This document shows, one piece after another, positions 18,578 to 45,022 of a stretch of DNA of 60,799 nucleotides. Each line of letters opens with the position of its first letter. Within the stretch, counting starts at the first letter, position 1. The translations under genes were made by a program, and so were the position numbers. The stretch covers positions 1 through 60,799 of IMG/VR virus record IMGVR_UViG_3300031851_006073. One strand, 5' to 3'. The DNA comes from a virus. The notes under the pieces were generated by a model. That model was not told where the DNA came from, did no database searches, and saw only the letters and a program-made list of their open reading frames with translations.

Positions 18578-19609
18578 ATGAAAAAAATTATAGTAACAGG
18601 AGTAACGGGTCAAGACGGCAGCCATATGGTTGACTATCTTCTAAAAAATACAGATTATAAAATATACGGCGCAGCGCGACGCTTAAGCGTAAAAAACCAT
18701 GAAAATATTCTGCATTTAGAAAATGAATCACGATTTGAATTGATTAATATGGACCTGAATGATGCGCATAGTATTAGAGATGTCGTTATTGATATTCAGC
18801 CAGATTATTTCATTAATTTTGCTGCACAGTCATTTGTGGCCGGAAGTTGGGATTATCCAATTCAAACATGGGACACAGATGCTGATGCAGTTTTACATAT
18901 TTTAGAGTCAATTCGTAGGTTTGCCCCAAACTGTAAATTTTATAATGCAGGTTCTTCAGAGGAATTTGGAGATGTAATTTGTAGCCCTCAAGACGAAAAC
19001 CACCCTCTCAGACCGCAAAGTCCATATGGCGCCGCGAAATGCGCAGCTAGGCATATTGTCAGGGTTTACAGGGAATCTTACAACCTGTACGCAGTTCAAG
19101 GTTGGCTATTTAATCATGAAGGATCAAGAAGGGGCTTGGATTTTGTAACAAGAAAAATTAGCCATACGGTAGCCAAAATAAAATTAGCTATAGAAGACAA
19201 AAAACAAACACCTGTTTTAAAACTCGGAAACCTAGAAGCTAAAAGAGATTGGAGCGACGCAGAAGATTTCATGGAAGGCGTTTGGCTCATGCTTAATCAA
19301 GAAGAACCTAAAAATTATGTTCTAGGCAGTGGCGAAATGCATACCGTGAGAGAGTTTTTAAATGAAACTTTAAAATGTGCAGGAATTGAATTTAAATCTT
19401 CTGGATCTGAAGATAATGAAAAATATTATACCTTAGATGGTCAATTAATTTTTGAGGTAAGCCCTAAATTCTACCGACCTGCAGAAGTTCATGAGTTATG
19501 CGGAGACTGTAATTTAGCCGAAAAAGAAATGGGGTGGATTAGGAAGACTGACTTTAAGGGTTTAGTAAAAAAAATGTATCAGAATGACTACATGCAATTA
19601 AGTCGATGA
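18578..19609 (+). CDS. gmd: GDP-mannose 4,6-dehydratase
   Basis: The 343-residue short-chain dehydrogenase begins KKIIVTGVTGQDGSHMVDYL (NAD(P)-binding GxxGxxG), carries NAGSSEEFGD with the catalytic Ser or Thr and Glu, and SPYGAAKCAARHIVRVYRES with the Y-x3-K pair. GWLFNHEGSRRGLDFVTRKI is a close match to the Gmd substrate-binding region. It should turn GDP-mannose into GDP-4-keto-6-deoxymannose. The next gene, overlapping by four bases, performs the following step to GDP-fucose. An AT-rich TATTAT box lies six bases before the start, with a weak -35. Confidence 0.93.
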   Translation: MKKIIVTGVTGQDGSHMVDYLLKNTDYKIYGAARRLSVKNHENILHLENESRFELINMDLNDAHSIRDVVIDIQPDYFINFAAQSFVAGSWDYPIQTWDTDADAVLHILESIRRFAPNCKFYNAGSSEEFGDVICSPQDENHPLRPQSPYGAAKCAARHIVRVYRESYNLYAVQGWLFNHEGSRRGLDFVTRKISHTVAKIKLAIEDKKQTPVLKLGNLEAKRDWSDAEDFMEGVWLMLNQEEPKNYVLGSGEMHTVREFLNETLKCAGIEFKSSGSEDNEKYYTLDGQLIFEVSPKFYRPAEVHELCGDCNLAEKEMGWIRKTDFKGLVKKMYQNDYMQLSR

Positions 19610-20562
19610 AAAGTAAAAAAGTTTTTGTAGCCGGCCACAAAGGAATGGTTGGGTCATCGGTTTTAAATAATTTAATCAAAAATGGTTATAAAAATCTACT
19701 AACCAAAACTCGCAGAGAATTAGATTTAACAAAACAAAAAGAAGTTGAATCTTTTTTTTGCAAAGAAAGACCCGAAGCTGTTGTTATATGCGCAGCAAAA
19801 GTTGGCGGTATTTTAGCGAACAGCAATTATCGCGCAGATTTTATATATCAAAATTTACAAATTGCATCTAATATAATATATGCTTCTCACAAATTTAATG
19901 TGAGTAAGTTAATTAATTTAGGCAGCTCATGCATATACCCCAAGAATGCAGACATTCCGATTAAAGAAGAAAGCTTACTAACAGATGTATTGGAAAAAAC
20001 AAATGAGCCATATGCGATCGCTAAGATAGCGGCGATTAAATTATGCGAAAGTTTTTACGATCAATATAAAAATAATTTTTATTCAGTCATGCCCTGCAAT
20101 ATGTACGGCCCTAGAGATAACTTTAACTTAAAAAGTTCTCACGTATTACCAGCTCTTATTAGAAAAGTTCATGAAGCAAAAGAAAATAATGCAAAAAATA
20201 TTGAAGTATGGGGCACAGGCAAACCCCTTCGTGAATTTTTGTATGTTGATGATTTAGCTAATGCGATAACATATTGCCTTGAATATGTCGATGCTAAGAA
20301 TATATATGATGAAAAAATTTCTCATATTAATTGTGGTTCTGAAGATGAAGTATCTATTCTTGAATTAGCGAATATAATACAAGACATAATCGGCTATCAA
20401 GGTGATATATTATTTGACTCATCTAAACCAGATGGAACTTATCGTAAAAAAATGGATAATAATAAATTATTAAAAATGGGATATAAGCCTACAACACCAC
20501 TTACAGACGGCATTAAAAAAACATGCTCTTGGTATATAGAAAATAAGCAAAAATTCGTGTAA
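19606..20562 (+). CDS. fcl: GDP-L-fucose synthase
   Basis: The 318-residue protein has KVFVAGHKGMVGSSVLNNL (NADP-binding), VGGILANSNYRADFIYQNL, LGSSCIYPKNADIPIKEESL and YAIAKIAA, with the catalytic S, Y and K, all diagnostic of GDP-4-keto-6-deoxymannose epimerase/reductase. Together with Gmd it should make GDP-L-fucose from GDP-mannose. The pair plus nearby glycosyltransferases suggests that fucose or a related deoxysugar is added to the virion or the host surface. The length is near the usual 310-320. Confidence 0.93.
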   Translation: MKSKKVFVAGHKGMVGSSVLNNLIKNGYKNLLTKTRRELDLTKQKEVESFFCKERPEAVVICAAKVGGILANSNYRADFIYQNLQIASNIIYASHKFNVSKLINLGSSCIYPKNADIPIKEESLLTDVLEKTNEPYAIAKIAAIKLCESFYDQYKNNFYSVMPCNMYGPRDNFNLKSSHVLPALIRKVHEAKENNAKNIEVWGTGKPLREFLYVDDLANAITYCLEYVDAKNIYDEKISHINCGSEDEVSILELANIIQDIIGYQGDILFDSSKPDGTYRKKMDNNKLLKMGYKPTTPLTDGIKKTCSWYIENKQKFV

Positions 20563-23771: not shown

Positions 23772-23794
23772 GAAATCTAGTAAATGTTCCATAG

Positions 23795-23820
23795 GCCACC
23801 CAGAAATGGGTGGCTTTTTT
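23795..23820 (+). terminator. Intrinsic terminator after OMP-like gene
   Basis: GCCACCC (23795-23801) pairs with GGGTGGC (23808-23814) around a six-base loop, followed by six T. Confidence 0.9.
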
Positions 23821-23843
23821 GTGTAATTATAGTCTCTAAATAT

Positions 23844-23849
23844 TATAAT
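23844..23849 (+). promoter_or_regulatory. -10 box of PSD1 gene
   Basis: A perfect TATAAT ends six bases before the ATG at 23856. The -35 region is poor; a GTGTAATTAT stretch lies at 23821-23830. A leaderless start is predicted. Confidence 0.5.
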
Positions 23850-23855
23850 CCTACA

Positions 23856-26126
23856 ATGAAAAAACTAATTTTATTATTCCTATCATCAATCTATTGCTTC
23901 GGCGATAAACTTTACTTTAACAACGGAAAAGGTCTAAAAGGAGATGTTCTTGAGGCGAATGCGACTCACGCTCTAATAAAAAGATCAAGCGATTTGCAAC
24001 TATTCAAAATAGCAATAGATTCTTTAACAGAAGATAATCAGGCTTATATTAAAAACAACTTCCCGCCCAGTCACACAGCTTTGCCTAAATTCAAGAAACC
24101 TCTATCAGATAATGATTTAAATACTCATGCGAGGTACATCGACAGTTTAATTGAAGCAAAATTAAGATCATATAATCTAAGACCAAATAAAGAGGTTAAC
24201 GATGCTACGTTTTTACGTAGATCATATTTAAAAGTTATCGGACGAACACCATCCTTAATCGAAGTAGAAGCTTTTTTAAATAATAAGGATAAAAATAAAA
24301 GATCTCAGCTAATTGATCAACTTTTAGGGAGCGAAGGGTATGTAAGTCATTGGTTTAATTTCTGGGCGGATATCTTAAGAATAAAAGACAGGTTAAATAA
24401 TAGAGTCTCAGGAATACCATACAAAAATTATGTAAAAGAATTTATATCAAATAATAGACCATACGACGAATGGGTTAGAGAAATGCTTTCTTCGTCCGGA
24501 GCTCTTTGGGTAAAAGGGAACGAAGGGGTTAGTTATTTCGCTCGAGACGTAAACATGCCTCTCGACAACATGGCAAACACAGTGCGGGTTTTTCTTGGAA
24601 CTAGTCTTGAGTGCGCTCAATGCCACGATCACCCTTTTGATCGCTGGACACAAAAGCAGTTCTATGAAATGGCGGCATTTACCAGCGGATCAACAAACTT
24701 AAGAAGAAGAGGTGTCGACAATTTGGGTCAATTCAACAGGCTAGTTGGAGCCGAACAACGAAGGCTTGAAAAAGCAGGTGAACCGCAAAAATCCAGGCAA
24801 CTAAGAAATGAATCTAGATCTATTCAAGATGTCCTTCAAACAGGTCTTGATAGTTTAGGTTCTGGCAAAATTAATTTGCCAAATGATTATCAATACGATA
24901 ATGCAAAACCAAGCGAAGTACTTTCAGGAAAAACAATTTTTGGTCAAGAAATTAACATAAAAACTAAAACTCCAGAAGCAGGTTCTAGGGAAATTTACGC
25001 TAATTGGTTAGCGTCAGACTCTAATCCAAGATTTACTGCGGTAATTGTAAATCGCCTATGGAAAGAGGTTTTCGGCTTAGCTTTAATCGAGCCTCTAGAT
25101 AATATGTTTGATGATACATTAGCTACAGATGCAAAGCTGCAGCTTCATTTAGAAAAAGTTATAGTTGCGCTAGACTATGACTTGAAAGAGTTTCTCAGGA
25201 TACTTTATAATACAAAAACTTTTCAAAGACAATCTGTCATTAGAGATGTTATCCCAAAAGATAATAAAGATCAATCTATACCTATTGAGGTAAAATGGAT
25301 TGTAGCTGGCCCAGACCCAGAAAAACAATCAAAAAATGCAATACCTTATTTTTACCAAGGCCCAATACTTGAAAGAATGAGTGGCGAACAAATTTGGGAT
25401 TCATTAGTAAATTTAACGTTTAACGATATAGACTCCAGAAAGTTAGAGCAAAACACAAAAGGTTACGAACAGTTTGAAAATTTCTCACCTATGACTGGAG
25501 AAGAATTATTTCAAGATCTTATGGCCAAAATTAATAAAACAGAAAGGCCAAAAATGGCAAGCGAAACAAAGTTTTCGGAACCAATAAATACCGATTGCCC
25601 AATCAAACCTGGAAGAGCTATTGATCCAACCTTATTAGCTCTCAACGAAAATGGAGAAACAATTGCATTTTGCTGTGAATCTTGTGTTGATAAATTCAAA
25701 TCTCAACAACAATCCAAGCAAGATGAATATAAACAAAATCACGTGAAAGACCGCAACTCCGTAAGAGCTTCTGAATTACCCTCCCCCGCGCCCGTAGGGC
25801 ACCTTATTCGCGAGTTTGGCGGTTCAGACAGAGAGCAGATAGAAAACTCAAATAAAAGCGCTTCTGCAACGCAGGTGCTAAACCTACTCAATGGTTTTGT
25901 GGAAACTAGATTATTAAAAAATAAAAACTTTGAAATTATTAAAGCGATTGAATCTCAAAAATCGTTAAACGATAAAGTTAAAGTAGGATATAAATATATA
26001 TTGAACAGAGAACCTTCTTCAAAAGAAATGAAAATATTTACTGACAATATTAAAGATAAAAAAGAGGCATATAAGGAAATAATATGGACGTTAATCAATA
26101 CTCATGAATTTATATTTGTGAAATAG
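23856..26126 (+). CDS. PSCyt2-PSD1 (DUF1549/DUF1553) secreted protein with SHD1-like and Cys domains
   Basis: The 756-residue product has a signal peptide (MKKLILLFLSSIYCFG), an SHD1-like domain to about 70 (KGLKGDVLEANATHALIKRS, then LTEDNQAYI), then DUF1549/PSCyt2 to about 300 with C253-A-Q-C256-H257, DHPFDRWTQKQFYEMAAF. A cysteine cluster at C581 and C606-C607-x2-C610 resembles a YHS or TRASH metal site. DUF1553/PSD1 motifs include SREIYANWLASDSNPRFTAV. The family is typical of Planctomycetes and Verrucomicrobia; its function is unknown. I use the ATG at 23856, six bases after TATAAT; an upstream in-frame start lies within the terminator. The DUF1501 gene nearby is its usual partner in bacteria. 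Confidence 0.85.
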   Translation: MKKLILLFLSSIYCFGDKLYFNNGKGLKGDVLEANATHALIKRSSDLQLFKIAIDSLTEDNQAYIKNNFPPSHTALPKFKKPLSDNDLNTHARYIDSLIEAKLRSYNLRPNKEVNDATFLRRSYLKVIGRTPSLIEVEAFLNNKDKNKRSQLIDQLLGSEGYVSHWFNFWADILRIKDRLNNRVSGIPYKNYVKEFISNNRPYDEWVREMLSSSGALWVKGNEGVSYFARDVNMPLDNMANTVRVFLGTSLECAQCHDHPFDRWTQKQFYEMAAFTSGSTNLRRRGVDNLGQFNRLVGAEQRRLEKAGEPQKSRQLRNESRSIQDVLQTGLDSLGSGKINLPNDYQYDNAKPSEVLSGKTIFGQEINIKTKTPEAGSREIYANWLASDSNPRFTAVIVNRLWKEVFGLALIEPLDNMFDDTLATDAKLQLHLEKVIVALDYDLKEFLRILYNTKTFQRQSVIRDVIPKDNKDQSIPIEVKWIVAGPDPEKQSKNAIPYFYQGPILERMSGEQIWDSLVNLTFNDIDSRKLEQNTKGYEQFENFSPMTGEELFQDLMAKINKTERPKMASETKFSEPINTDCPIKPGRAIDPTLLALNENGETIAFCCESCVDKFKSQQQSKQDEYKQNHVKDRNSVRASELPSPAPVGHLIREFGGSDREQIENSNKSASATQVLNLLNGFVETRLLKNKNFEIIKAIESQKSLNDKVKVGYKYILNREPSSKEMKIFTDNIKDKKEAYKEIIWTLINTHEFIFVK

Positions 26127-26541: not shown

Positions 26542-27834
26542 ATGAACTTTAATACAATAGATGAATTAGGAAGAAGAGAATTTATAGCTCATGCAGCTAA
26601 AGCGTGTTTCGGCGTGGGATTGATGCCGATGGCAGGAGCATATATACATAACAATGTTAGCGCTTTGAACCCTGGAGCAAGAGTTCCGACAGCAAGGCAC
26701 GTTATTTACTTAAACATGGGGGGAGCCATGTCTCACCTTGATACATTTGGACCAAAGCCAGATGCGCCAGATATCCAAGGCCCTACTAAATCTATTTCAA
26801 CAAGCGCAGACGGGGTAATTCTTTCTGAAAACTTGCCAAAAACTGCAGAACTCATGCATCACGCAGCAATAATTAAAACGATGAACACAAGCCAAGGGGC
26901 TCACGAACAAGCAAGTTATTTAATGCATACAAGCTACCTTAAACGAGGTACAATTGTTCACCCTACATTTGGTAGCTGGGTATCTAAACTTTCTGGCTCA
27001 ATTAATAGAACGATACCTAGTAACGTTAAAATAGGTGGGGGCGGAGGCGGCGCGGGCTTTTTAGAATCAAAATATGGAGCGTTACCAATTAACAATCCAA
27101 ACTCGGGATTAGCTAACAGCAAAATGGCTTCATACTTAGATCACGAGCATTTTCAAAGCAGAATATCTATTGCAGAAGCTTTGAATGAAAATTTCTCCAC
27201 TCAGTTTCCGCAGAAAAAAGTAAGAGCTTATTCCGACTTATATAAAGATGCAATTAAATTAATGAATAGCAATGATCTAAATGCTTTTGACATTACAAAA
27301 GAGCCAGAGTCAACAAGCAATCTTTATGGTCAAACTAATTTTGCAAAAGGATGCTTATTAGCAAGAAGGCTCGTAGAGCATGGCGTAAGATATGTTGAGG
27401 TAACAAGAGGGGGATGGGATACGCATGATAATAACTTTGATAGAGTAGCAGCAAATTGTACCGATATCGATCAAGCTCTAAGCGGTCTGTTAATTGATTT
27501 AAACCGAAGAGGTATGCTTTCTAACACCTTAGTAGTTTTAACTTCTGAATTTGGAAGAACTCCAAACATCAATGGAAGAGACGGAAGAGATCACTGGCCT
27601 TATTGTTTTACGGCTTTTTTGGCAGGAGGAGGAGTTAAGGGAGGAATGACTTATGGAGAAACCGACAAAACAGGCCGCACCCCCGTAGAAGGCAAGCCTG
27701 TTAAGCCTGAAGACTTGAATGCAACTATTGCACATACTTTGGGCTTATCATTAAATGATTACCAATACTCTCCTTCCGGAAGACCGTTTACAATAGCCCA
27801 TAAAGGCGAGCCTTTGCTTGATATCTTGGCATAA
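26542..27834 (+). CDS. DUF1501 family protein with Tat-like signal
   Basis: The 430-residue protein has an N-terminal GRREFIAHAAKACFGVGL with twin Arg at 11-12, like a Tat export signal. The body has GGAMSHLDTFGPKPDAPD (about 58-76), GGWDTHDNNFDRV, LTSEFGRTPNINGRDGRDHW and NATIAHTLGLSL, which are diagnostic DUF1501 motifs; the family resembles the alkaline phosphatase and sulfatase superfamily with D, H and R likely binding metal. In Planctomycetes and Verrucomicrobia, DUF1501 genes usually sit next to PSD1 genes, as here. The length is near the usual 420-480, so it appears intact. The natural substrate is unknown. Confidence 0.88.
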   Translation: MNFNTIDELGRREFIAHAAKACFGVGLMPMAGAYIHNNVSALNPGARVPTARHVIYLNMGGAMSHLDTFGPKPDAPDIQGPTKSISTSADGVILSENLPKTAELMHHAAIIKTMNTSQGAHEQASYLMHTSYLKRGTIVHPTFGSWVSKLSGSINRTIPSNVKIGGGGGGAGFLESKYGALPINNPNSGLANSKMASYLDHEHFQSRISIAEALNENFSTQFPQKKVRAYSDLYKDAIKLMNSNDLNAFDITKEPESTSNLYGQTNFAKGCLLARRLVEHGVRYVEVTRGGWDTHDNNFDRVAANCTDIDQALSGLLIDLNRRGMLSNTLVVLTSEFGRTPNINGRDGRDHWPYCFTAFLAGGGVKGGMTYGETDKTGRTPVEGKPVKPEDLNATIAHTLGLSLNDYQYSPSGRPFTIAHKGEPLLDILA

Positions 27835-27855
27835 AAAAGCCCCCTTACGGGGGCT
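27833..27855 (-). terminator. Intrinsic terminator of the nrd genes
   Basis: AGCCCCC (27838-27844) pairs with GGGGGCT (27849-27855) with a four-base loop. On the minus strand it is followed by a T-run (A 27833-27838 on plus), which overlaps the DUF1501 stop codon. Confidence 0.85.
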
Positions 27856-27883: not shown

Positions 27884-28897
27884 TTAAAAGTCGTCTTCTA
27901 AAGCTCCGCTTTGTTGATATTCTCTAACTCTTCTCTCAAAGAAGTTTCCCATAGCTTGAACGTCCACAACTTCACTTAACCAAGGAAAAGGGTTTTTATC
28001 GCTTGGGAAACGATAATCTAAGCCAATAGCTTCTAACCGGCGATTACCAATGTAGTACATATAATCTACAAACATATCTGCATTTAAACCAAGAATACCC
28101 GTAGGTAATACATCATGCGCATAAGCTATCTCAAGCTCAACGGCTTTTTTCATATGGTCGACAAACTCATTTTGAATCTCTTTGGTCCAAATCTCTGGGT
28201 TTTGCTCTATTAAAGTATTAATTAGATACGTTCCAAAAGCGATGTGAGAGCTTTCATCCCTTAAGGTGTATTTAATTTGATCTGATATTCCTTGAAGTTT
28301 GTTTTGGCGACCTAAAGCCAATAACATTGCAAAGCCGCTGAAGAAAAATGTACCCTCGCAAACAATCCAAAAAGTTAGGAAATTGCGAAGAATTTCTTGC
28401 TTGCCTTCTATAGTATGAGCGCTAAAATCTGGTCGACTAATATCATTAGTGATAGTCATCAAAAAGTCATCTTTTGCTTTAATACTTGGTATTGTCTCGT
28501 AAGCCGCAAAAACCTCTTCTATATCCAAATCTAAACTATCGCAAACGTATACTACCGTAAGATTGTGAAGACTTTCTTCAAAAGCTTGACGAAGTATATA
28601 CTGACGACATTCAGCATCAGTAATAAACCTAAAAGCCGAAAGAAGCAGGTTATTGCCAACCAAAGACTCAGATCCCGCAAAGAACCCAAGACATCGTTTA
28701 ACGAGTAATTTTTCATCTTCTGTGATTTCATCGTTCTTCCATTGTTTAATGTCGTTCTGCATACTAATTTCAGTAGGCATCCAATTATTGGCGCAACTTT
28801 TTAAAAATAAATCCCACGCATATTTATGTTTATGAGGTAATATTCTATTTACCCCCGCGATATTTTCTGTTAATAATTCTCCTGTTTTATCATTCAT
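27884..28897 (-). CDS. nrdB: Ribonucleotide reductase small subunit, class Ic-like
   Basis: The 337-residue protein is an R2 subunit holding the metal centre for making deoxynucleotides. Metal ligands are E77 (FFAGSESLVGNN), E108, H111 (EESLHN), E181, E215 and H218. The first ligand is Glu rather than the usual Asp, and the position of the radical Tyr (H111+4) is V115. These two changes are the mark of Chlamydia trachomatis class Ic enzymes, and stretches such as ESLVGNN and RQAFEE match it well, as recalled. A manganese-iron centre without tyrosyl radical is therefore likely. I use the ATG at 28897, six bases after TACAAT; a start 30 bases upstream would lie in the -35 box. Confidence 0.93.
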   Translation of the reverse strand: MNDKTGELLTENIAGVNRILPHKHKYAWDLFLKSCANNWMPTEISMQNDIKQWKNDEITEDEKLLVKRCLGFFAGSESLVGNNLLLSAFRFITDAECRQYILRQAFEESLHNLTVVYVCDSLDLDIEEVFAAYETIPSIKAKDDFLMTITNDISRPDFSAHTIEGKQEILRNFLTFWIVCEGTFFFSGFAMLLALGRQNKLQGISDQIKYTLRDESSHIAFGTYLINTLIEQNPEIWTKEIQNEFVDHMKKAVELEIAYAHDVLPTGILGLNADMFVDYMYYIGNRRLEAIGLDYRFPSDKNPFPWLSEVVDVQAMGNFFERRVREYQQSGALEDDF

Positions 28898-28903
28898 AGT
28901 TTT

Positions 28904-28932
28904 ATTGTATAATAAATAACGTTTCAAGTCAA
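28904..28932 (-). promoter_or_regulatory. Sigma70-like promoter of nrdB
   Basis: On the minus strand, TTGACT and TACAAT are 17 bases apart and the ATG is six bases after TACAAT. This sets the nrdB start at 28897 and predicts a leaderless message. Confidence 0.8.
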
Positions 28933-28940
28933 GATTAAGT

Positions 28941-29210
28941 TTACTCTAATTTGTTTAATAGATGTTGATATTTTTCTATATCTATCGCAACTCTTATGGA
29001 TTCATCAGCTTCAGGATTTAATGATAGATATTTTTTTCCCCTATCAATTATTTCTTCTAACGTTTGAATGTAAGCTGTTTCTGCATAATCTCTTTGCTTT
29101 CTGTAATTTATAGAATCTATATTAGAGTTAATTCTCCTAAGGTCTTTCCTGATTAACTTGCATCTAACTACAGCTTCCTTAAAGGACTTTAAATGCTTGA
29201 ATCTCGTCAT
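28941..29210 (-). CDS. Small helical hypothetical protein between nrdA and nrdB
   Basis: The 89-residue protein is basic in the first half and helical throughout (RFKHLKSFKEAVVRCKLIRK, ETAYIQTLEEIIDRGKKYL). I do not recognise it. Its start overlaps the last base of nrdA, so it is made from the nrdA message, and the nrdB promoter sits just after it. It might be a regulator or partner of the reductase, but nothing in the sequence shows it. Confidence 0.6.
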   Translation of the reverse strand: MTRFKHLKSFKEAVVRCKLIRKDLRRINSNIDSINYRKQRDYAETAYIQTLEEIIDRGKKYLSLNPEADESIRVAIDIEKYQHLLNKLE

Positions 29211-31627
29211 TATTGACAGCTTTCACATATCTCTCCATTTCTCATAGCTTCAATGCTGCAAGCAGAAGGGTCTTCTTTTTTAACCTCTTCTGCGTGAGAC
29301 TTTTCTACCTTGGAAGCCGCTCTGTTTCGGAGGTAATAAGTAGTTTTTAATCCAGCCTCCCAGCAAGCTACATAAACATCATTTAAATATTTCAATGAAG
29401 TAGATTTATTATAAAGATTAAAACTCACAGCTTGATCGATCCATTTTTGGCGAACTGAATTGCATTCAATTAATTTAAACATATCGCGGTCAAATGCGGT
29501 TTTATATTTTTCTTTTAATTCCGTTGGGATATCCCCATTTAATAAAGATAGGTCTCCGTCAACACTCTTCACGAGCTTGGCTATTTCGCTATTCCATAAT
29601 CCTGCAGATTTCATATCATTGATGAAATGTTGATTAGTAATAAAAAAATTGCCGCTTTTATTCTCATAAACAAATAACACAGAGAAATTAGGTTCTATAC
29701 TTTGTTCGACTCCATTTATATAACCAATTGTAGCTGTGGGGGCGATAGCCATAACATTACTATTTCGCATTCCATGGTTGCAAATATGCTCCCTAACTTC
29801 GTCCCAATTTAAACTTGTATTAATTTCAGGTCTCTTACCTTTATACTTCATTAACTCAGAATATGAATCGATAGGCAATTTATTTTGACTCCAAAGAGAG
29901 CCATTAAATGTAGCGTATTTTCCTTTTTCTTTTGCTAACTTAGAGCTGGCCAAAATTGCATGATAAGAATAAAACTCAAATAATTTATCATTAAACTCAA
30001 CGGCTTCATCACTATCAATATTAATATTCATTCTATGACAGACATCATGTAGAGCCATTATACCTAAACCAATAGGTCGATGCTTTAAATTACTATTTTC
30101 CGCCTCCTTAGTCGGATAAAAATTAAGATCCACAACACTATCTAGCGCTCTAATAGCGGTATGTATTGTATTCTCTAACTTGCCATAATCTAAAGCGTTA
30201 TCATCATTTAAATGATTAAGTAAATTTACCGAGCCTAAATTACAGACAGCAGTTTCTCCAACGCTAGTTTTTTCCCCCTTATCGTACTTAGAGGATTTAG
30301 TGTGAAGAGTAATCTCTGTACATAAATTGCTGCTATGAACAACGCCTTCGTGTTGATTTGTGTAACGTATATTACATGGATCCTTAAAAGTATTCCATGG
30401 GTGCGAAGTTTCGAATAAAACCTTGAGCATCTTTTTCCACAGCTCTTTTGCTGGAGTAACCCTATAGTTTTTTATTAAACCCTCTTCAGCTTTCTCGCAT
30501 AATTCGTTATATTTCTTATCGAACTCTTCCCCGAATAGATCATGCAGACCGGATTCTTTTGGGTCGAAGAAGTACCAAGCGTCTTTGCCCTGAACTCTGC
30601 GCATAAATTCATCAGGAATCCAAGAAGCTGTATTCATATCGTGGCACCTCAATCTGTCATCTCCAGTGTTTCTTCTTAGATTTAAAAAATCTTCAAAATC
30701 TAAATGCCAAGGTTCTAAATAAGCGCATCCAGCTCCAGGCCTTTTCCCTCCTTGATTTACTGCTACAAGAAGGTCGTTATAGATCTTAAGCCAAGGAACA
30801 AGTCCGCTAGAAACACCGTTGGTCCCCTTAATGTGTGAACCTGTTGATCTAAAAGGGGTGACATCAAGACCTAGACCTCCAGCGTATTTGCTCTTGCGAG
30901 CTTCTTGCCAAGCCCCATCAAAAATACCGTCAATACTGTCATCAAAAGTATTTAAATAACACGAACTTAATTGAGATTTGACCGTCCCACTATTAAAAAG
31001 AGTAGGAGTCGAAGAGGTGTATAAAAATTGGCTAAACATATCATAATACTTGATTGCCCACGCTTCCTTGTCTTCCTCGTTAAGAGCGAGCCCCATAGCT
31101 ACGCGCATCCAAAAAGACTGAGGGGCCTCCATAATTTTATCGTCTTCTCTGATAAAATACCTATCCGCAAGAATTTGTATTCCTAAATATTTAAACGAAA
31201 GATCTCTGCGTATCTTAATAGCTTCTGACAGCCTAGTTAAATCATACTCAAGCATTCTTGGGTTTAATTTTTCGCTTTTAACTAATTTTTTAACCCCTTG
31301 AACGAAACTTTTTCGGTATTGCAGCTTAAAAACATCTGAATCAACACCCTCTTTAAATACTTCTTTATATACTGTGTTCAACAGCAGCCTGCCTGCAGCG
31401 TAACCATAATTAGGTTCTTTTTCTATTTTTTCTCTCGCACTTAAGATAAGAGCTGTATCAATTTCCTTGGTTGTGATTTTATCGTATAATTGCAACTGAG
31501 CGTCTAGCACAATTTCACTCACAGACACGTCAGAAATGTCATCACATGCGCGTTCAACATTAGCATTAATTTTCTCGACATTAAAGTCTTGAAGCCTACC
31601 GTTTCGTTTTTTTACTTTTATATCCAT
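29210..31627 (-). CDS. nrdA: Ribonucleotide reductase large subunit
   Basis: The 805-residue subunit carries out reduction of ribonucleotides. An ATP-cone-like domain fills about 1-95 (VKKRNGRLQDFNVEKINANV). The catalytic part has LSSCYLNTFDDSIDGI (first redox cysteine), CTEITLHT and CNLGSVNLLNHL, and the closing C-E-S-C-Q is the swinging tail cysteine pair. NSNVMAIAPTATIGYINGVE is the expected active-site region. It should pair with the class Ic-like NrdB nearby. It has its own promoter and diverges from the polymerase genes, so DNA building-block supply and polymerase expression may be switched together. Confidence 0.96.
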   Translation of the reverse strand: MDIKVKKRNGRLQDFNVEKINANVERACDDISDVSVSEIVLDAQLQLYDKITTKEIDTALILSAREKIEKEPNYGYAAGRLLLNTVYKEVFKEGVDSDVFKLQYRKSFVQGVKKLVKSEKLNPRMLEYDLTRLSEAIKIRRDLSFKYLGIQILADRYFIREDDKIMEAPQSFWMRVAMGLALNEEDKEAWAIKYYDMFSQFLYTSSTPTLFNSGTVKSQLSSCYLNTFDDSIDGIFDGAWQEARKSKYAGGLGLDVTPFRSTGSHIKGTNGVSSGLVPWLKIYNDLLVAVNQGGKRPGAGCAYLEPWHLDFEDFLNLRRNTGDDRLRCHDMNTASWIPDEFMRRVQGKDAWYFFDPKESGLHDLFGEEFDKKYNELCEKAEEGLIKNYRVTPAKELWKKMLKVLFETSHPWNTFKDPCNIRYTNQHEGVVHSSNLCTEITLHTKSSKYDKGEKTSVGETAVCNLGSVNLLNHLNDDNALDYGKLENTIHTAIRALDSVVDLNFYPTKEAENSNLKHRPIGLGIMALHDVCHRMNINIDSDEAVEFNDKLFEFYSYHAILASSKLAKEKGKYATFNGSLWSQNKLPIDSYSELMKYKGKRPEINTSLNWDEVREHICNHGMRNSNVMAIAPTATIGYINGVEQSIEPNFSVLFVYENKSGNFFITNQHFINDMKSAGLWNSEIAKLVKSVDGDLSLLNGDIPTELKEKYKTAFDRDMFKLIECNSVRQKWIDQAVSFNLYNKSTSLKYLNDVYVACWEAGLKTTYYLRNRAASKVEKSHAEEVKKEDPSACSIEAMRNGEICESCQ

Positions 31628-31737: not shown

Positions 31738-32511
31738 ATGTTACCATTATTTAAAAGCCACTTTTCTATAGGCAAAAGCATATTAACGCTTGAAGATCCA
31801 ATTACACATAAAGAAGGCAAGTCGGACAGTGTTTTTTCAATTGCTATAGAAAATAACTTAAAAGAAGTAGTTCTTGTCGAAGATTCGTTAACTGGATTTT
31901 TGCAAGCCAAAAAACAAACAGACAACCTTGGATTGAAATTAATTTTTGGTTTAAGAATAAACATGAAAGAAGATGCAAAAACCAACCCAAAAGAAGAAAG
32001 CCAACAATCCTCTCATAAGATTATAATCTTTGCTAAAAATTCAAACGGTTGTAAATTGTTAAATAATATATCAAGCCTAGCTAATACGGAAAACTATAAT
32101 TGCGTCGATCGTAAAACTTTAAAAAAATACTGGGAAAATAAAGATTTATTATTAGCTGTTCCCTTTTATGATTCGTTTATATTTAATAATTTAATTAAAT
32201 TTTGCAACTGCACACCAAATTTTGACTTCTGCAAACCGATATTGTTTCTAGAAAGCAACTCTCTGCCTTTCGATAATTTTATAGGCGACAGAGTTAAGGA
32301 GTACGCGCAAAATAATAAACTTGAGACACAAACAACTAAAAGTATATATTATAAAAACAAAAAAGACGTAAAAGCCTTACAAACTTATAAGTGCATAACA
32401 GGCAGAAGCTTCGGCAATAAAACGTTATCAAAACCAAACTTAGATCACTTCGGTAGCAATGAATTTTGCTTCGAAAGCTGGAAGGAGAAAAATGAAAGAA
32501 TCACTACTTAG
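31738..32511 (+). CDS. PHP-like domain of split DNA polymerase III alpha
   Basis: The 257-residue protein resembles the N-terminal PHP domain of DnaE. LPLFKSHFSIGKSILTLEDP stands where bacterial enzymes have a HxHxS motif and is degenerate, and FSIAIENNLKEVVLVEDSLT with LGLKLIFGLRI matches the following strands. Later regions resemble the end of PHP (LQTYKCITGRSF). It is made as a separate protein, followed by an exonuclease and a polymerase gene. With metal ligands mostly missing it is probably structural. It overlaps the next gene by 20 bases. Confidence 0.7.
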   Translation: MLPLFKSHFSIGKSILTLEDPITHKEGKSDSVFSIAIENNLKEVVLVEDSLTGFLQAKKQTDNLGLKLIFGLRINMKEDAKTNPKEESQQSSHKIIIFAKNSNGCKLLNNISSLANTENYNCVDRKTLKKYWENKDLLLAVPFYDSFIFNNLIKFCNCTPNFDFCKPILFLESNSLPFDNFIGDRVKEYAQNNKLETQTTKSIYYKNKKDVKALQTYKCITGRSFGNKTLSKPNLDHFGSNEFCFESWKEKNERITT

Positions 32512-33136
32512 ATTTCAAAAAAATAAAAAGTATTTACTGTTTGATTATGAAACATGTAATTTAAATCTTGTATCAAATAATAAACCATGGCAACTAGCGT
32601 TTCTTGTGATAGAAAATAATAAAATTGTAGAGCAAAAAGATTATTGGCTTAAGTGGGACGAACTAAACGTTTCTCCTGATGCGGCTAAGATCACAGGCTT
32701 TACAGAATCAAAGTACAAGAAAAAAGCTTCGTGCCCCAAAGTCGCGCTAGATCATTTAGAGAAGTATTTGTATGACGACTCCTATCTTAAGGTTGGGCAC
32801 AACTTACTAGGGTTTGATGTTTATATGCATAATGTTCACCGCAAATTAATTGATGAAAATGCAGAAACAGATTTTAGCTATACTGAGCACTTAGTAGATA
32901 CCTTATGCCTTGCAAAAGCTCTCAAAAAGAGAATAAAGCTAGATAAAGATGATAATTTTTTAGCGTGGCAATACCGACTTAACCACCTGATTGAAAGAGG
33001 CTTAAGTTGCAACTTAAGGCAGTGCTGCAAAGATTTTGATGTTGACTTTGATGAGAAAAAATTGCATGATGCCTTATACGACATTAAAGTTAACTACGAA
33101 GTATTTAAAAAAATGATATGGGAAATAGAAGTATAA
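32492..33136 (+). CDS. DnaQ-like 3'-5' exonuclease
   Basis: The 214-residue protein is a DEDDh-type exonuclease: YLLFDYETCNLNL (D-x-E, about 16-20), VGHNLLGFDVYMHNVHRKL (D in motif 2) and LHDALYDIKVNYEVF (H-x4-D, motif 3). It should proofread for the polymerase. I chose the ATG at 32492 because GGAAGGAG, a strong Shine-Dalgarno site, lies just before it, rather than a longer reading upstream. It sits between the PHP and polymerase genes, as the exonuclease domain lies inside PolC. Confidence 0.85.
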   Translation: MKESLLRFQKNKKYLLFDYETCNLNLVSNNKPWQLAFLVIENNKIVEQKDYWLKWDELNVSPDAAKITGFTESKYKKKASCPKVALDHLEKYLYDDSYLKVGHNLLGFDVYMHNVHRKLIDENAETDFSYTEHLVDTLCLAKALKKRIKLDKDDNFLAWQYRLNHLIERGLSCNLRQCCKDFDVDFDEKKLHDALYDIKVNYEVFKKMIWEIEV

Positions 33137-35694
33137 TGAATTTTACAGAACAATTCGAAAAGTATGAAGACTGCGCCCCTCCAGGAGTGAAGCTTCCTGA
33201 GATTAAAATTGAAAAAAAATATTATGAAATGCTTGAAGCGTCAGAAGATATTTCTAACTTCGACTTTCTTCGAAAGCTTTGCTATAAAGGGGTATACGAT
33301 AGAGGGGTAGATAAATTTAAAAACAAGAAAGATTACTTTGAAAGAGCAAAATCGGAATTAAAAATTTTAGATGAACTAGGATTTATAGATTATATTTTAT
33401 TAAACTGGGATATAATAAATTATTGCCACGAAAATGATATTCCGACTGGCCCAGGAAGAGGGTCAGCCGCAGGCTCTTTAGTATTATATCTAATTGGGGT
33501 TACAAATGTCGACCCCGTTAAGTATAGTTTGTTTTTTGAGCGCTTTGTGTCCAAGAGTAGGGCGAGAAAAATAGAAAAAGACGGAGAAACGTATCTTGAC
33601 GGCAGTCTTTTGGCGGATATTGATAATGATATCGCATATGAAAGACGAGCTGAAGTTATCGAGTATATTGAAAGAAAGCATCCCTCTCGTACAGCAAAAA
33701 TATTAACCCTTAACACTCTTAGCGGAAAACTTTGCGTGAAAGAATGCGGCAAAATTGTTGGAGAACTTTCTGAACAAGAAGTTAATGAAGTCAGTAGTAC
33801 TATTCCAAAAAAATTCGGTATTGTTATGCCTATTTCGTCCGCAACAGAAGAAAGTGAAAAATTTGCAGATTGGGCGGCAAATAATCCAGAAGTTTTCGAG
33901 ATCTCTCTCAAACTAGAAGGTTTAAATAAAAACTCTGGCGTCCACCCTAGTGGCATTGCGATTTCTTTTCAAAAAATCACAGACATTTGTCCAATTCAAA
34001 AATCGAATGACGGAGCTTTAGTTACGGGTTACGACATGAATTGGGTGGCGGAGCTGATGGTTAAATTTGATATCTTAGGATTAAGGACTTTAAGTGTGAT
34101 TTATGATGTATGCAGAAACCTAGATATTGACATCTCATCGGTAGACCTTAATAACGCGGACGTATACACGCCGCTACGCTCCCTCAGCACGCCTCACGGA
34201 CTCTTTCAATTAGAATCTGACACAAACTATAGAGTCTGCAAAAAGATCAAACCTAAAGACTTAGAGCAGCTTAGCGCAGTTGTAGCAATTGGAAGGCCTG
34301 GAGCCTTAGAATTTTTAGATGATTACGCAACATATTCTGAGACGGGGGAAGCTCAGGTTATTCATGAATTTTTTAGTGACGTTTTAGATTATACGGGAGG
34401 AATCCCCCTTTACCAAGAGCAGCTAATGCAAATGGCAGTTAAGGTTGGATTCACGCTTGATGAAGCGGAGCAGCTTAGAAGAATTGTAGGTAAGAAAAAA
34501 GTCGACCAAATGCCTGCTTGGAAAAAAAAGATTGAGGACAAAATCCAGCAAAATAATCTTCCTTCAGAAATCTCTCATATACTATGGAGCGTCGCAGAAG
34601 ATAGCGCAAATTATTCTTTTAATAAATCGCACTCTCTTGCATACGCAACTCTGTCTGCTTGGACAGCATATTTAAAATTCAATTACCCAAGAGAATTTTT
34701 TATATCCTTATTAAAAATGACCAAATACGAACCATCTCCGCAGGAAGAAATATCAAAAGTTTCTAAGGAATTGTCCAGTTTCGGCATTAAACTTTTATGC
34801 CCTGATCTAGCTAAGTCTAGTATGGATTTTTCTTTTGAAGAAAAGAATATTAGATTTGGGTTAAATAGTATTAAAGGCGTAAGTGAGAAATCACTTCAGT
34901 CTCTCAGAGACTTTCGTTCTACCGAGACTCCCACAAAATATGATATCTTTCTTGCGGCAAAGCAGGCTGGATTAAATATTGGAATCTTAAGTTCGTTAAT
35001 ACAAGCTGGAGCTTTAGAAAGTAAAGGCGAAAACAGGTCTTTAATGGCTCTTGAAGCTCAAGCGTTTAACCTTCTTACTGATAGAGAGAAGCGTAATTTT
35101 ATTTCTCTTGGAGAAAAATATGAATACAAACTTCTAAACTGCATAGCAGACGCCAAAAAAGGAGACTTGGTCGGAGATGACGGTAAACCATTAATGAAAG
35201 AGTCTAGATTCAAAACGTTCAAGAAGAAATATGATGTTTACAAATTAATTTATGACAAAAATAAAATGTATCAAGGTTTCGCGAATTGGTATTTTGAAAC
35301 AGAACTTCTTGGATATAGCCATAGCTCATCCCTTAAATCGTGTTTTATTGATTCTTATAAAGCTTTAAAAGATTCAAGGGATTTAAATCTCATGGATTCG
35401 GATGAAAAAGGTAAATTCATTGGAGTCGTGGAAGACTGTATTAAAAGAACTTCTCGCAACGGGAACAAATATATGAAGCTGTCAATTACAGATGAACACG
35501 GCAAATATGACGCCATGCTTTTAAATTCCAGAAGAGGCAATTTTTATGACAGATATTTCGAATCAAAGAAGAAAACTCCATCAAAAAAGAATATAATCGT
35601 AGTGTATGGAAGAAAAGGGGAAGACATAGTATTTCTGGACTCATTAAACATAATGGATGAAAAGATATACATGAAAATGTCTGATATTAAATGA
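33136..35694 (+). CDS. dnaE: DNA polymerase III alpha catalytic part (DnaE-like)
   Basis: The 852-residue protein is a C-family polymerase without its PHP domain. Seen are IPTGPGRGSAAGSLVLYLIG (palm), LLADIDNDIAYERR with the two catalytic Asp residues, LMVKFDILGLRTLSVI with the third, and NKSHSLAYATLSAWTAYLKF in the fingers. A helix-hairpin-helix part (IRFGLNSIKGVSEKSLQ) and an OB fold (GKFIGVVEDCIKRTSRNG) follow. The order is that of DnaE, not PolC. The ATG at 33136 shares a base with the exonuclease stop. It should copy the phage genome with the two preceding subunits. Confidence 0.93.
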   Translation: MNFTEQFEKYEDCAPPGVKLPEIKIEKKYYEMLEASEDISNFDFLRKLCYKGVYDRGVDKFKNKKDYFERAKSELKILDELGFIDYILLNWDIINYCHENDIPTGPGRGSAAGSLVLYLIGVTNVDPVKYSLFFERFVSKSRARKIEKDGETYLDGSLLADIDNDIAYERRAEVIEYIERKHPSRTAKILTLNTLSGKLCVKECGKIVGELSEQEVNEVSSTIPKKFGIVMPISSATEESEKFADWAANNPEVFEISLKLEGLNKNSGVHPSGIAISFQKITDICPIQKSNDGALVTGYDMNWVAELMVKFDILGLRTLSVIYDVCRNLDIDISSVDLNNADVYTPLRSLSTPHGLFQLESDTNYRVCKKIKPKDLEQLSAVVAIGRPGALEFLDDYATYSETGEAQVIHEFFSDVLDYTGGIPLYQEQLMQMAVKVGFTLDEAEQLRRIVGKKKVDQMPAWKKKIEDKIQQNNLPSEISHILWSVAEDSANYSFNKSHSLAYATLSAWTAYLKFNYPREFFISLLKMTKYEPSPQEEISKVSKELSSFGIKLLCPDLAKSSMDFSFEEKNIRFGLNSIKGVSEKSLQSLRDFRSTETPTKYDIFLAAKQAGLNIGILSSLIQAGALESKGENRSLMALEAQAFNLLTDREKRNFISLGEKYEYKLLNCIADAKKGDLVGDDGKPLMKESRFKTFKKKYDVYKLIYDKNKMYQGFANWYFETELLGYSHSSSLKSCFIDSYKALKDSRDLNLMDSDEKGKFIGVVEDCIKRTSRNGNKYMKLSITDEHGKYDAMLLNSRRGNFYDRYFESKKKTPSKKNIIVVYGRKGEDIVFLDSLNIMDEKIYMKMSDIK

Positions 35695-35710: not shown

Positions 35711-38188
35711 ATGAAAATGACTCCAAAACCTAACTTTACGCCTCGAGCGCAACAAGCTATAAATGAAGCCAAAAAAGTTGCTAAAAAATATTTCAACGAG
35801 TATATCGCACTAGATCATCTATTTTTCGGCATGGTAAATTTAAATGCTGGTATTTTGAGTGAGATTTTGTTTTTATTGCAAATTGACCAAGCGCAATTAA
35901 AAGAAAAAATCGAAGACGCTATTTTTGCAGCATCTTCACAAGATGAATTTAATGCAGATCCAGAAGAAGTACGACCTGTTTATGACGAACATTTCCATTT
36001 AGTATTAAAGGTTGCGGCCTCTATTAGCGAAAAGCTTGGCCATGAATATGTAGGTATAGAACATATGCTATTAGCTTTGCTTAAATACGAAGAGTCAAAT
36101 ATACCAGAGTATTTTGATTCATTTAATGCCTCGGAAACCGATATTATTGCTGAAGTAAGAGAATACCTTCATTTATCAAAAGAGCATCAACCTGCCGAAA
36201 AAAGAAAGGAAAAACGCTTTATCCAGGCAGCTCCGGTGAAGGATGTGAAACTTCAAAATCTAGAGAAGTTTGCAACCAATTTAAATTCGCTAGCTTCTCA
36301 GGGAAAATTTGATACCATAATAGGGAAAAATGAAGAAATATCTGAAGTCTGCGAGATTTTATGCAGAAGAACCAAGAATAACCCAGTTCTTTTAGGCGAT
36401 CCAGGAGTAGGTAAAACCGCCATAGTTGAAGGCTTAGCTCAAGAAATCACTAACGGATCCTGCTCTGATTTCTTGTTGAATAAAACAATTTACTCGCTCG
36501 ACCTAGGTTCTTTAATTGCCGGAACAAAATATAGAGGGCAATTTGAAGAAAGGTTGAAAGGAATTATTGAAGACGCGAGAAAAAATAAAGATATAATATT
36601 ATTTATTGATGAAATACATACTTTAGTAGGGGCGGGTAGCGCCGAAGGAAGTATGGATGCAGCAAACCTGCTAAAGCCATTACTGGCGAGAGGTGAGTTA
36701 AAATGTATCGGGGCAACTACGCAAGAAGAATATAAAAAATCTATATTAAAAGATGGAGCTCTAGACAGGAGGTTTCAAGGTGTAAAGGTGATCGAACCAA
36801 CCAAAGAGGAAGCCAAACAAATAATTTACGGAATAAAAACCAAATACGAGCAATTCCACAGTATTCACTATCCAGATGAAGTGCTAGATTTAGTTGTAAA
36901 CCTTTCGGCGAGATATATTGTAGATAAACAATTTCCTGATAAAGCTATTGACATTCTTGACCAAGTGGGCTCGAAGGTCAAAATCAAAAACATCGAAAGG
37001 CCTCAGGAAGCTAAAGATATAGAGAGAGAGCTAGAAGATTTGGCGGTTGAGGAATCAAAAGTCCACTTAACTGGCGCAAGATCTATTGAATTAGAAGATC
37101 AGCAGCTAAACCTACTTGAGAGATATGACGAAGTTATTTCTAAATGGGCAAAAAAAACCATAAAATCTAAAATCTCAGTAAGAAAAAAGGATATATACGA
37201 AGTCATTTCTTCCAGAACAGGAATCCCTATGTCAGAAATTTCTAAAAAAGATTCAGAAAAAATGCTGGGACTCTTCAAGCAGTTAAATAAAAAAATAATC
37301 GGACAACACGAAGCCATTAAAGAAATTTCAGAATGCGTATTAAGGTCTAAATCTGGCTTGCAAGACCCGAGCAAGCCTGTAGGAAGCTTCTTGCTTGTAG
37401 GTTCAAGCGGCACAGGGAAAACATATACAGCAAAATGTATTGCTGAATTTATATATGGAAGCAAAGATAAGTTGATTCAGTTAGATATGAGCGAGTTTTC
37501 TGAAAAGATTTCTTCTAGTCGCCTTATAGGCGCTTCCCCAGGATATGTTGGCTATGAAGAAGGTGGAGAATTAACTGAAAAAGTCCGCAAAAACCCGTAT
37601 AGCGTTGTTTTGTTTGATGAAGTAGAAAAAGCGCATCCAGAGGTTTTAAATATTTTATTGCAAATCCTCGAAGAAGGTTTTGTTACAGACAATTCTGGTA
37701 GAAAAATCAACTTTTCTAATTGCACCATTATCTTAACAGGTAATATAGGTAGCGAAAAGATTAGCAAGCCCTCGATAGGCTTTGGCTCACCAATAGGAGA
37801 AACCGAAGCTATGAATAAGCTAAAGGATGAGTTAAAGACATTTTTTAGGCCAGAATTCTTAAACCGCTTAAATGAAATAATTTTATTTAAAAACTTCGAA
37901 GCAAAAGATATATCTAAAATTGTAAAGCTAGAATCTGACAAACTATCTTACAAATTAAAAGATAAAAATATCAAAATATCAATCACGCCCAAAGTATCAT
38001 CTTTTATCGCAGAAAATGCCGCTTTAGAGAAAATGGGGGCCAGGCCAGTAAAAAGGTTAATTCAAAAATATATAGAGAATAAATTATCAAAACTCATTCT
38101 AAGCAAAGAGTTAAGAGATAATCAAAACATTAAATTTAGTTTTATTAAAAACGAAATAATTTACAAAATTACGGAAGCAGAGGCTTAA
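35711..38188 (+). CDS. clpC: ClpC-like AAA+ unfoldase
   Basis: The 825-residue protein has the ClpC plan: N-domain to about 155 (FTPRAQQAINEAKKVAKKYF and a second repeat with YVGIEHMLLALL), first AAA+ module with LLGDPGVGKTAIVEG and ILFIDEIHTLVGAGSAEG, a short middle domain, and a second module with LLVGSSGTGKTYTAK and VVLFDEVEKAHPEV. I689-G690-F691 in KPSIGFGSPIG is the IGF loop used to dock on ClpP, so it may feed proteins to the host ClpP. It could remove host proteins or remodel phage ones. No ClpP gene is in the window. The start may be the second ATG at 35717. Confidence 0.93.
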   Translation: MKMTPKPNFTPRAQQAINEAKKVAKKYFNEYIALDHLFFGMVNLNAGILSEILFLLQIDQAQLKEKIEDAIFAASSQDEFNADPEEVRPVYDEHFHLVLKVAASISEKLGHEYVGIEHMLLALLKYEESNIPEYFDSFNASETDIIAEVREYLHLSKEHQPAEKRKEKRFIQAAPVKDVKLQNLEKFATNLNSLASQGKFDTIIGKNEEISEVCEILCRRTKNNPVLLGDPGVGKTAIVEGLAQEITNGSCSDFLLNKTIYSLDLGSLIAGTKYRGQFEERLKGIIEDARKNKDIILFIDEIHTLVGAGSAEGSMDAANLLKPLLARGELKCIGATTQEEYKKSILKDGALDRRFQGVKVIEPTKEEAKQIIYGIKTKYEQFHSIHYPDEVLDLVVNLSARYIVDKQFPDKAIDILDQVGSKVKIKNIERPQEAKDIERELEDLAVEESKVHLTGARSIELEDQQLNLLERYDEVISKWAKKTIKSKISVRKKDIYEVISSRTGIPMSEISKKDSEKMLGLFKQLNKKIIGQHEAIKEISECVLRSKSGLQDPSKPVGSFLLVGSSGTGKTYTAKCIAEFIYGSKDKLIQLDMSEFSEKISSSRLIGASPGYVGYEEGGELTEKVRKNPYSVVLFDEVEKAHPEVLNILLQILEEGFVTDNSGRKINFSNCTIILTGNIGSEKISKPSIGFGSPIGETEAMNKLKDELKTFFRPEFLNRLNEIILFKNFEAKDISKIVKLESDKLSYKLKDKNIKISITPKVSSFIAENAALEKMGARPVKRLIQKYIENKLSKLILSKELRDNQNIKFSFIKNEIIYKITEAEA

Positions 38189-43150: not shown

Positions 43151-45022
43151 CTAGTTTATAAACATGGGAGTAAAAGTGTGATTCGTGTTTTCAGCCTTAA
43201 CATTCATCATGTCATAATAAAGCTTAACCATCCAATTTCCTAAGATTAATGCGGAGTAAGAATCCTTTCTTGCTTTTTCTGGTCCGGTTTGCCTTTTTAA
43301 GCTTGAAGGTAAATCAAAAGTTTGCGTCCCGCCCGCAGAAGTTGATATTTTAATCAAAGAGCACTGAGATTTAATTAAGTTCATCATATCAAATTGATGC
43401 TCCACAAAATCAATCATCTTAGCGTCATTGGTTTGTCTTTCTAAACTTTGAGAGGTTCTTAGGAATTTTATATCCTGTATCGGTATTTTTTTCTTTCTTT
43501 GTTCGTTGTATACATCGTCTATCGCTCTACTTGCGAAGTATATTCTATGATGATCGAAATTAGCCTGAAGCAATTCGTTCGCCAATCTAATCCACTGACT
43601 AGTTGGTTTACGTAAATAACAGATAGTCGTGTCTTGTAAATTGTATTCTTTTTTTCCTTCTATTAATTTTTTCTGGTAATGCTCTATGTCATCAAAGTTT
43701 GTATTCATACATCCAATATTTAATTTATTCTTTTTGAATAATGAACTTTCATTACAAGCATTAATAAACTGCACTCCTCCATTATAGTCGCCAATAATAG
43801 ATACAATATTAAAATGAGTGAGTAAATAATAAAAATAAAATATATGTTGTTTTAAATTTGTTCCAGATAACGCATAGCTATGGACTACGGTTCCAATTTT
43901 TTTATCGTCATTTAACTTTAAAACCATCATGGCAAAATCGTCACTACTCTCATTCTCTGCCCAACTTGGGTCAAAAGCTAATATATATTTCGAACCAACT
44001 TCCCCGCAAACTTCTACATGGGGATTTTCTCCGTCTTTGAGTGTGCATGATGCCATTTTAGAGGTTTTAAAATACCCGCTACTATCATCTGTAAATATAG
44101 ACCCAAACTCCCGATCGAACTGACTTTGACTCATGGTAGATTTAGCTTGATCTAGAAGATTTTGATCGTATAACTGCTTCGGGGCACAATCGTAGCTAAA
44201 TTGCATGATAACTCTGTGAGCATCACTTTGTTTTGAGCTCCCGGTGCGGATTAAATCTTCAAATTGTTCGTACGCTTTATACATATATTCAAACTTATAA
44301 CTAGCAGAAGAAAGTGCGATGAGTTTATTGTTTCTCCAAACATGCCGATCATCTTCTGACATTTCGCCTTTATCTATCAAACTTGTTTCTAGGTTATATA
44401 ACTGCTCTCTTTGAGTGGGATTTTCAACCACACTAAGGAAGGGTATTATAACCTCATTATAAATTCTTTCAGGCATAAGGGCGAACTCGTCAATAATGAT
44501 TCTGTGAAAACGAAACCCGCGTAATTTCTCACCGTCCCCAAGAGGCAAGGCTCGTATCCTACTACTACCTATTTCAAGAAGCCATTCATCATTACTTTTT
44601 GATTTATGCGTAATGCATTGAGCCAGATAAGTCGCTCCAGGCTTGGATGCTATATCCTCAATTTTTTTAAATATCATTTTTGCTTGACGAAACGACTTAG
44701 AAAGTATACCAATCTCAACTCCTTGATTAAGTATTGCGTCTAGATACGCATATATTGCTGTAGTAAATGATTTACTCATTCCTCGAGACCAAACTCCCAT
44801 AAAATAATCTGTACTAAACATAGCCTTAATCGCCATATGCTGAAAAGGGAACAGTTGAACCCCGCTAACCAAATCCGCGGTAAATGTAATATTTTCTCTT
44901 AAAAATTTATACAATAAAATCTTAGCTTCCTTTTCCTCGATAAAACCCTTGACTTCCTCAAGTTGTTCATTGAAATTCATTTCTGAATTCCTAGATAGTT
45001 GGTTTCCTGTTTCCCAAGCCAT
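43151..45022 (-). CDS. terL: Terminase large subunit
   Basis: The 623-residue protein packages DNA into the head. It has a Walker A-like GVWSRGMSKSF (about 76-86), Walker B HRIIIDEFALM, the coupling region KLIALSSASYKFEYMYK, and the nuclease domain with YILAFDPSWAENESSDDFAM and VSIIGDYNGGVQFI, giving catalytic Asp residues. A final helical part ends at the head-operon promoter. It is a fused ATPase and RNase H-fold nuclease as in other terminases. It is the last gene of the operon that begins with the zinc-ribbon gene. Confidence 0.92.
   Translation of the reverse strand: MAWETGNQLSRNSEMNFNEQLEEVKGFIEEKEAKILLYKFLRENITFTADLVSGVQLFPFQHMAIKAMFSTDYFMGVWSRGMSKSFTTAIYAYLDAILNQGVEIGILSKSFRQAKMIFKKIEDIASKPGATYLAQCITHKSKSNDEWLLEIGSSRIRALPLGDGEKLRGFRFHRIIIDEFALMPERIYNEVIIPFLSVVENPTQREQLYNLETSLIDKGEMSEDDRHVWRNNKLIALSSASYKFEYMYKAYEQFEDLIRTGSSKQSDAHRVIMQFSYDCAPKQLYDQNLLDQAKSTMSQSQFDREFGSIFTDDSSGYFKTSKMASCTLKDGENPHVEVCGEVGSKYILAFDPSWAENESSDDFAMMVLKLNDDKKIGTVVHSYALSGTNLKQHIFYFYYLLTHFNIVSIIGDYNGGVQFINACNESSLFKKNKLNIGCMNTNFDDIEHYQKKLIEGKKEYNLQDTTICYLRKPTSQWIRLANELLQANFDHHRIYFASRAIDDVYNEQRKKKIPIQDIKFLRTSQSLERQTNDAKMIDFVEHQFDMMNLIKSQCSLIKISTSAGGTQTFDLPSSLKRQTGPEKARKDSYSALILGNWMVKLYYDMMNVKAENTNHTFTPMFIN

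Follow-up and report, generated by a model that had tools for sequence, protein, structure and literature searches.

The class I ribonucleotide reductase (RNR) β subunit (R2, NrdB) encoded by the virus record IMGVR_UViG_3300031851_006073 carries a glutamate as its first metal ligand and a valine in place of the radical tyrosine. It is probable that this NrdB is an R2 protein that operates with a class Ic-type Mn/Fe oxidant and without a tyrosyl radical, and that it represents a viral clade with valine or isoleucine at the radical position located near the NrdBz enzymes. The metal ligands, homology and fold give good support to class Ic-type chemistry as such, i.e., a metal-centered oxidant and no tyrosyl radical. 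The sequence-only reading had assigned the protein to class Ic, and this assignment stands with respect to the chemistry but not with respect to strict membership in the clade of phenylalanine-type class Ic enzymes, because the viral proteins form a branch of their own and the enzymes combining a glutamate ligand with phenylalanine (E/F) are not monophyletic.

The window (the whole stretch of DNA that was analyzed, 60,799 bases) contains a terminase gene at 43151-45022 (PF03237), and related viral records reach 184-211 kb; therefore, the record is probably a fragment of the genome of a large tailed phage. The nrdB gene occupies positions 27884..28897 of the minus strand and codes for a protein of 337 amino acids, with an ATG start codon at 28897 and an alternative in-frame TTG at 28927. 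Its product matches the R2 family PF00268 with 257.7 bits and the NCBIfam model NF005550 with 454 bits (cut-off 309). The order of genes on the minus strand is nrdA (31627-29210), an ORF of 89 codons (28941..29210) and nrdB, and inspection of the sequence reveals a likely intrinsic terminator, AGCCCCCGTAAGGGGGCTTTTTT, 3' of nrdB (27833..27855, minus strand). The 89-residue product belongs to no known family, having no match in NCBIfam, Pfam or PHROGs, and the ORF is present in 10 of 80 close loci. The nrdA gene (29210..31627, minus strand) codes for a class I RNR α subunit of 805 amino acids with one ATP-cone (PF02867, PF00317, PF03477; 1014 bits with NF005544, cut-off 965). Judged by its sequence, NrdA is intact, with a complete set of catalytic and radical-transfer residues: the active-site cysteine, asparagine and glutamate, the tyrosine pair and the C-terminal CxxC motif are invariant across both viral clades described below.

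When NrdB is aligned with the class Ic R2 chains 1syy/4d8f (Chlamydia trachomatis, hereafter Ct) and 6y2n, E77 (codon at 28667..28669; this and all other codons of NrdB are on the minus strand) falls on Ct E89, and V115 (GTA codon, 28553..28555) falls on Ct F127, both within ungapped stretches. The former position is occupied by aspartate in class Ia/Ib enzymes and the latter by their radical tyrosine. The sequence-only reading had named a glutamate first ligand at position 77, a valine instead of tyrosine four residues after H111, and the Glu and Phe pair of the Chlamydia enzyme; all three were borne out by this alignment, with the numbering correct and with valine, not tyrosine, at the radical position. 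The other ligands are E108 (28574..28576; Ct E120), H111 (28565..28567; Ct H123), E181 (28355..28357; Ct E193), E215 (28253..28255; Ct E227) and H218 (28244..28246; Ct H230), so that four carboxylates and two histidines of a ferritin-like R2 domain (PF00268) are in place. The radical-transfer residue W39 (28781..28783; Ct W51), Y210 (28268..28270; Ct Y222), D214, which is the counterpart of Ct D226, and the C-terminal radical-transfer tyrosine Y327 (27917..27919; Ct Y338) are also found. The match of flanking motifs to the Chlamydia enzyme that had been claimed holds only in part, since helix B reads HNLTV in the phage protein and HTHTF in Chlamydia.

The combination of glutamate with valine or isoleucine is not a peculiarity of one genome. 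We compared 82 close homologues (88-100% identity overall), which consist of 80 sequences from the viral collection (88-97% identity), one contig from a metagenome-assembled genome (MAG) and the window locus itself. Position 77 is glutamate in 82 of 82, while position 115 is valine in 68, isoleucine in 14 and tyrosine in none; none of the 82 departs from the six ligands or from the transfer residues, including W39, Y210 and Y327. When an alignment of phenylalanine-type class Ic sequences was used for a scan, a second viral clade emerged, 61-66% identical to the phage NrdB, which again has glutamate together with valine or isoleucine, and in the wider set this combination occurs in 224 full-length sequences (some contigs being counted twice). 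A sequencing error or misalignment is ruled out by the ungapped alignment and the many homologues. Among 25 representatives with identities under 70%, 12 have glutamate with phenylalanine, valine or isoleucine, 12 have aspartate with tyrosine (D/Y) and one has glutamate with tyrosine (Fisher p 2.7e-6, a value that ignores shared descent). The only relative found by scanning the genome collection is an 11-kb contig of a Woesebacteria MAG (90% identity, isoleucine at the radical position), which is probably viral DNA binned with a bacterial MAG.

The scan with phenylalanine-type sequences also found viral contigs with D/Y enzymes and, separately, contigs whose NrdB carries the classical class Ic E/F pair (L193, L194, L203, L205, L261 and the divergent L266); the L193 protein is 74% identical to the Chlamydia R2. 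Viral phenylalanine-type genes thus seem to exist as well, the contigs being putatively viral. In Pseudomonas phage vB_PpuM-Peetri, a hypothetical protein encoded immediately before nrdB (L084, 3204-3989) resembles, by eye, a second copy of R2 from which metal ligands have been lost.

The lack of tyrosine at the radical position, an established trait of class Ic (V115 here, valine or isoleucine in all close viral relatives), and the glutamate first ligand (E77) both agree with class Ic. For the residue at the tyrosine site, a review defines class Ic by a Phe/Glu pair (PMC8463856), Harrison 2019 describes NrdBzc as having F, L or V at this site together with a glutamate first ligand (PMC6370689), and L, I and V are cited in PMC3824934; valine is thus acceptable under the last two sources, while a 2026 preprint accepts only F or L (PMC12918982). 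Class Ia/Ib, which needs a radical tyrosine and an aspartate first ligand, is rejected by V115 and E77, and class Ie, in which carboxylate ligands are expected to be missing, is rejected by the presence of all four.

The best matches by sequence in the PDB are class Ic proteins, namely the Ct chains (E 7e-115, with 52% identity to the C. trachomatis R2) and 6y2n (2e-108). The next R2 follows at 8.5e-37, and E. coli class Ia (near 6e-16) and the class Id chains 6sf4 (2e-11) and 6cwo (2e-8) are weaker matches. In a Foldseek search of the PDB with a predicted model, the first 14 ranks are class Ic-type R2 chains; the model, built from an alignment of viral rows only, is a rough one (pLDDT 77, pTM 0.79, both ends poor, rmsd 7-11 Å to the matches).

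In phylogenetic trees inferred after removal of the two trait columns, the valine/isoleucine sequences form one clade (support 100/99), which lies beside, and not inside, the NrdBz-type enzymes and outside both the D/Y and the E/F sequences sampled. The E/F enzymes do not form a single clade, 6y2n being placed among D/Y enzymes; polyphyly of R2c was also found in an earlier study cited in PMC3824934. In AU tests, joining the viral clade to the D/Y enzymes alone is disfavored (p 0.022), while the test does not reject a union with the E/F enzymes (p 0.08 and 0.053), though such a joint clade has no tree support. The tree thus argues against a place among tyrosine enzymes alone but does not put the viral proteins inside a phenylalanine-type class Ic clade.

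T114 and C119 are invariant in the viral clade and are otherwise characteristic of E/F enzymes, being seldom met among D/Y enzymes. N112, V116, T211, I219 and G75 are fixed in the viruses as well, and L113 nearly so, whereas no class Ic or class Ia relative shares these residues, which flank the metal site. Because this second sphere is unlike that of the Chlamydia protein, a metal-centered oxidant made with another metal pair, either the Mn pair known from class Id or a high-valent Fe center with two Fe ions, has to be considered, and we regard it as rather unlikely. The clade-specific residues near the metal site speak for it, classes Ic and Id have identical first-sphere ligands (E, E, H, E, E, H; PMC6370689), and the preprint found no assignable metal pattern and left the cofactor open (PMC12918982). 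Class Id, however, keeps a tyrosine at the radical position (PMC8463856), so its Tyr/Glu pairing is only half present here and class Id proper is rejected; its PDB chains are remote compared to those of class Ic, and overall the protein resembles class Ic in both sequence and fold. With about the same low likelihood, the viral clade, with its valine or isoleucine and its rebuilt second sphere (N112, L113, V116, T211), may constitute a further subclass of class I found in abundant marine phages, whose metals or activation route would be unlike the Mn/Fe of Chlamydia.

The remaining explanations are much less probable. A tyrosyl radical could have been retained by shifting to the nearby Y117 (Ct Y129), which is invariant in the alignments, but this is very doubtful, as the same tyrosine is present in the Ct R2, which uses a Mn/Fe metal-based oxidant (PMC8463856), and also in D/Y enzymes that keep the usual tyrosine. 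Less probable still is that NrdB is no reductase subunit at all but belongs to the R2-like oxidases (R2lox) or represents an R2 paralogue without activity: R2lox proteins also have a glutamate first ligand and no radical tyrosine (PMC3824934, PMC4118035), but the C-terminal Y327, which is absent from R2lox, and W39 are invariant in the close relatives, the conserved F185 corresponds to Ct F197, which blocks the R2lox ligand channel (PMC4118035), R2lox NCBIfam models give 34-66 bits against 454 bits for the RNR β model, and nrdA adjoins on the same strand. Equally improbable is that the protein is a NrdBza-type class Ia enzyme relying on a tyrosyl radical, whose tyrosine was lost in one phage only through sequencing error or decay: although the closest homologues among deposited phages have the D/Y pair (45-46% identity), the valine/isoleucine state is kept in well over 100 viral contigs that form one fully supported clade, whose union with the D/Y enzymes alone is disfavored by the AU test, and an error is ruled out by the conserved homologues.

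In the favored reading, NrdB serves as the small subunit (R2) in an aerobic class I RNR of a large marine phage and supplies deoxynucleotides for the replication of phage DNA. By analogy with C. trachomatis class Ic (PMC8463856), the protein would bind one Mn ion in site 1 and one Fe ion in site 2, and reaction with O2 (or H2O2) would convert the center into the Mn(IV)/Fe(III) state. The Mn(IV) ion would then take over the function of the tyrosyl radical and oxidize the active-site cysteine in NrdA by way of W39, Y327 and the NrdA tyrosine pair.

The genes next to nrdB suggest the nature of the host. A DUF1501 gene (26542-27834, plus strand; PF07394, 371 bits) lies beside nrdB, and a gene at 23784-26126 (plus strand) encodes a protein of the DUF1549/DUF1553 (PSCyt2/PSD1) type that also matches DUF4214. 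Both are families typical of PVC bacteria; therefore, a PVC host is suggested. Neither protein has a match in 50,697 deposited phage records. Among the 10 large related viral records, eight contain DUF1501 and four contain DUF1549/DUF1553, and the DUF1501 gene is often located just downstream of nrdB in both viral clades, being within about 4 kb in 21/80 and 25/60 loci. In one related record (G069, that of L210), four DUF1501 copies lie close together at 100055-109431. Elsewhere on the plus strand of the window, DNA polymerase III α is split into separate ORFs (31738-35694), with a PHP-like portion at 31738-32511, an exonuclease of the DnaQ/PolC type at 32459-33136 and the polymerase portion at 33118-35694, followed by a gene for a ClpA/ClpB-type AAA+ chaperone (35711-38188; best NCBIfam score 796 bits, below the cut-off of that model). 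Two sugar-nucleotide genes adjoin each other at 18578-20562 (plus strand); one is of the GDP-mannose 4,6-dehydratase type, the other codes for an epimerase, and they may serve GDP-fucose synthesis.

Should the Mn/Fe assignment hold, hundreds of marine phages would replicate by means of a reductase that needs no tyrosyl radical, and viral replication would be tied to the supply of both Mn and Fe and perhaps protected from radical scavengers. The phage NrdB also provides a defined test protein for the viral group to which it appears to belong.

Of the known systems, the class Ic R2 of C. trachomatis (1syy, 4d8f, 4m1i; Mn/Fe) shares with the phage protein the same six ligands, the absence of the radical tyrosine, the W/Y/D/Y transfer residues and the fold, but it is a cellular and not a viral protein, has phenylalanine and not valine or isoleucine at the radical position, HTHTF and not HNLTV on the ligand helix, and other residues fixed near the site. 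The NrdBz enzymes (RNRdb; NrdBza is class Ia and NrdBzc is class Ic; PMC6370689) are the neighboring branch, and the phage NrdB scores far above the cut-off of NF005550, but the viral sequences branch separately. The RNR β of cyanophages of the Cyano SP group (class O or proposed If; PMC6370689, PMC9531940) is likewise a viral R2 with a glutamate first ligand and without the radical tyrosine, but it belongs to a divergent minimal RNR, has a second-sphere aspartate and not the glutamate found here (E107), and branches away from class Ic.

The closest likeness is to a group described in a bioRxiv preprint of February 2026 (PMC12918982), which reports 269 marine viral RNRs from GOV 2.0 with an α subunit nearest to NrdAz and a β subunit without the radical tyrosine, with isoleucine or valine in its place, named 'subclass Ic-like'. 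Matched by this description, the phage NrdB very probably belongs to this virioplankton clade. No class Ic was detected in the marine viral set of the preprint, and its authors call the residue inconsistent with class Ic. The existence of a viral group without the radical tyrosine is thus largely known already from that work. In the passages of the preprint that we covered, there is no mention of a glutamate as first ligand, of two sub-clades, of the transfer residues or of DUF1501 in the neighborhood; relative to those passages and the literature searched, what is new is the invariant glutamate, the division into two sub-clades, the coupled changes in the second sphere and the gene neighborhood. 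The conserved glutamate, which those passages do not mention, is an added reason to place the 'Ic-like' group within class Ic-type chemistry.
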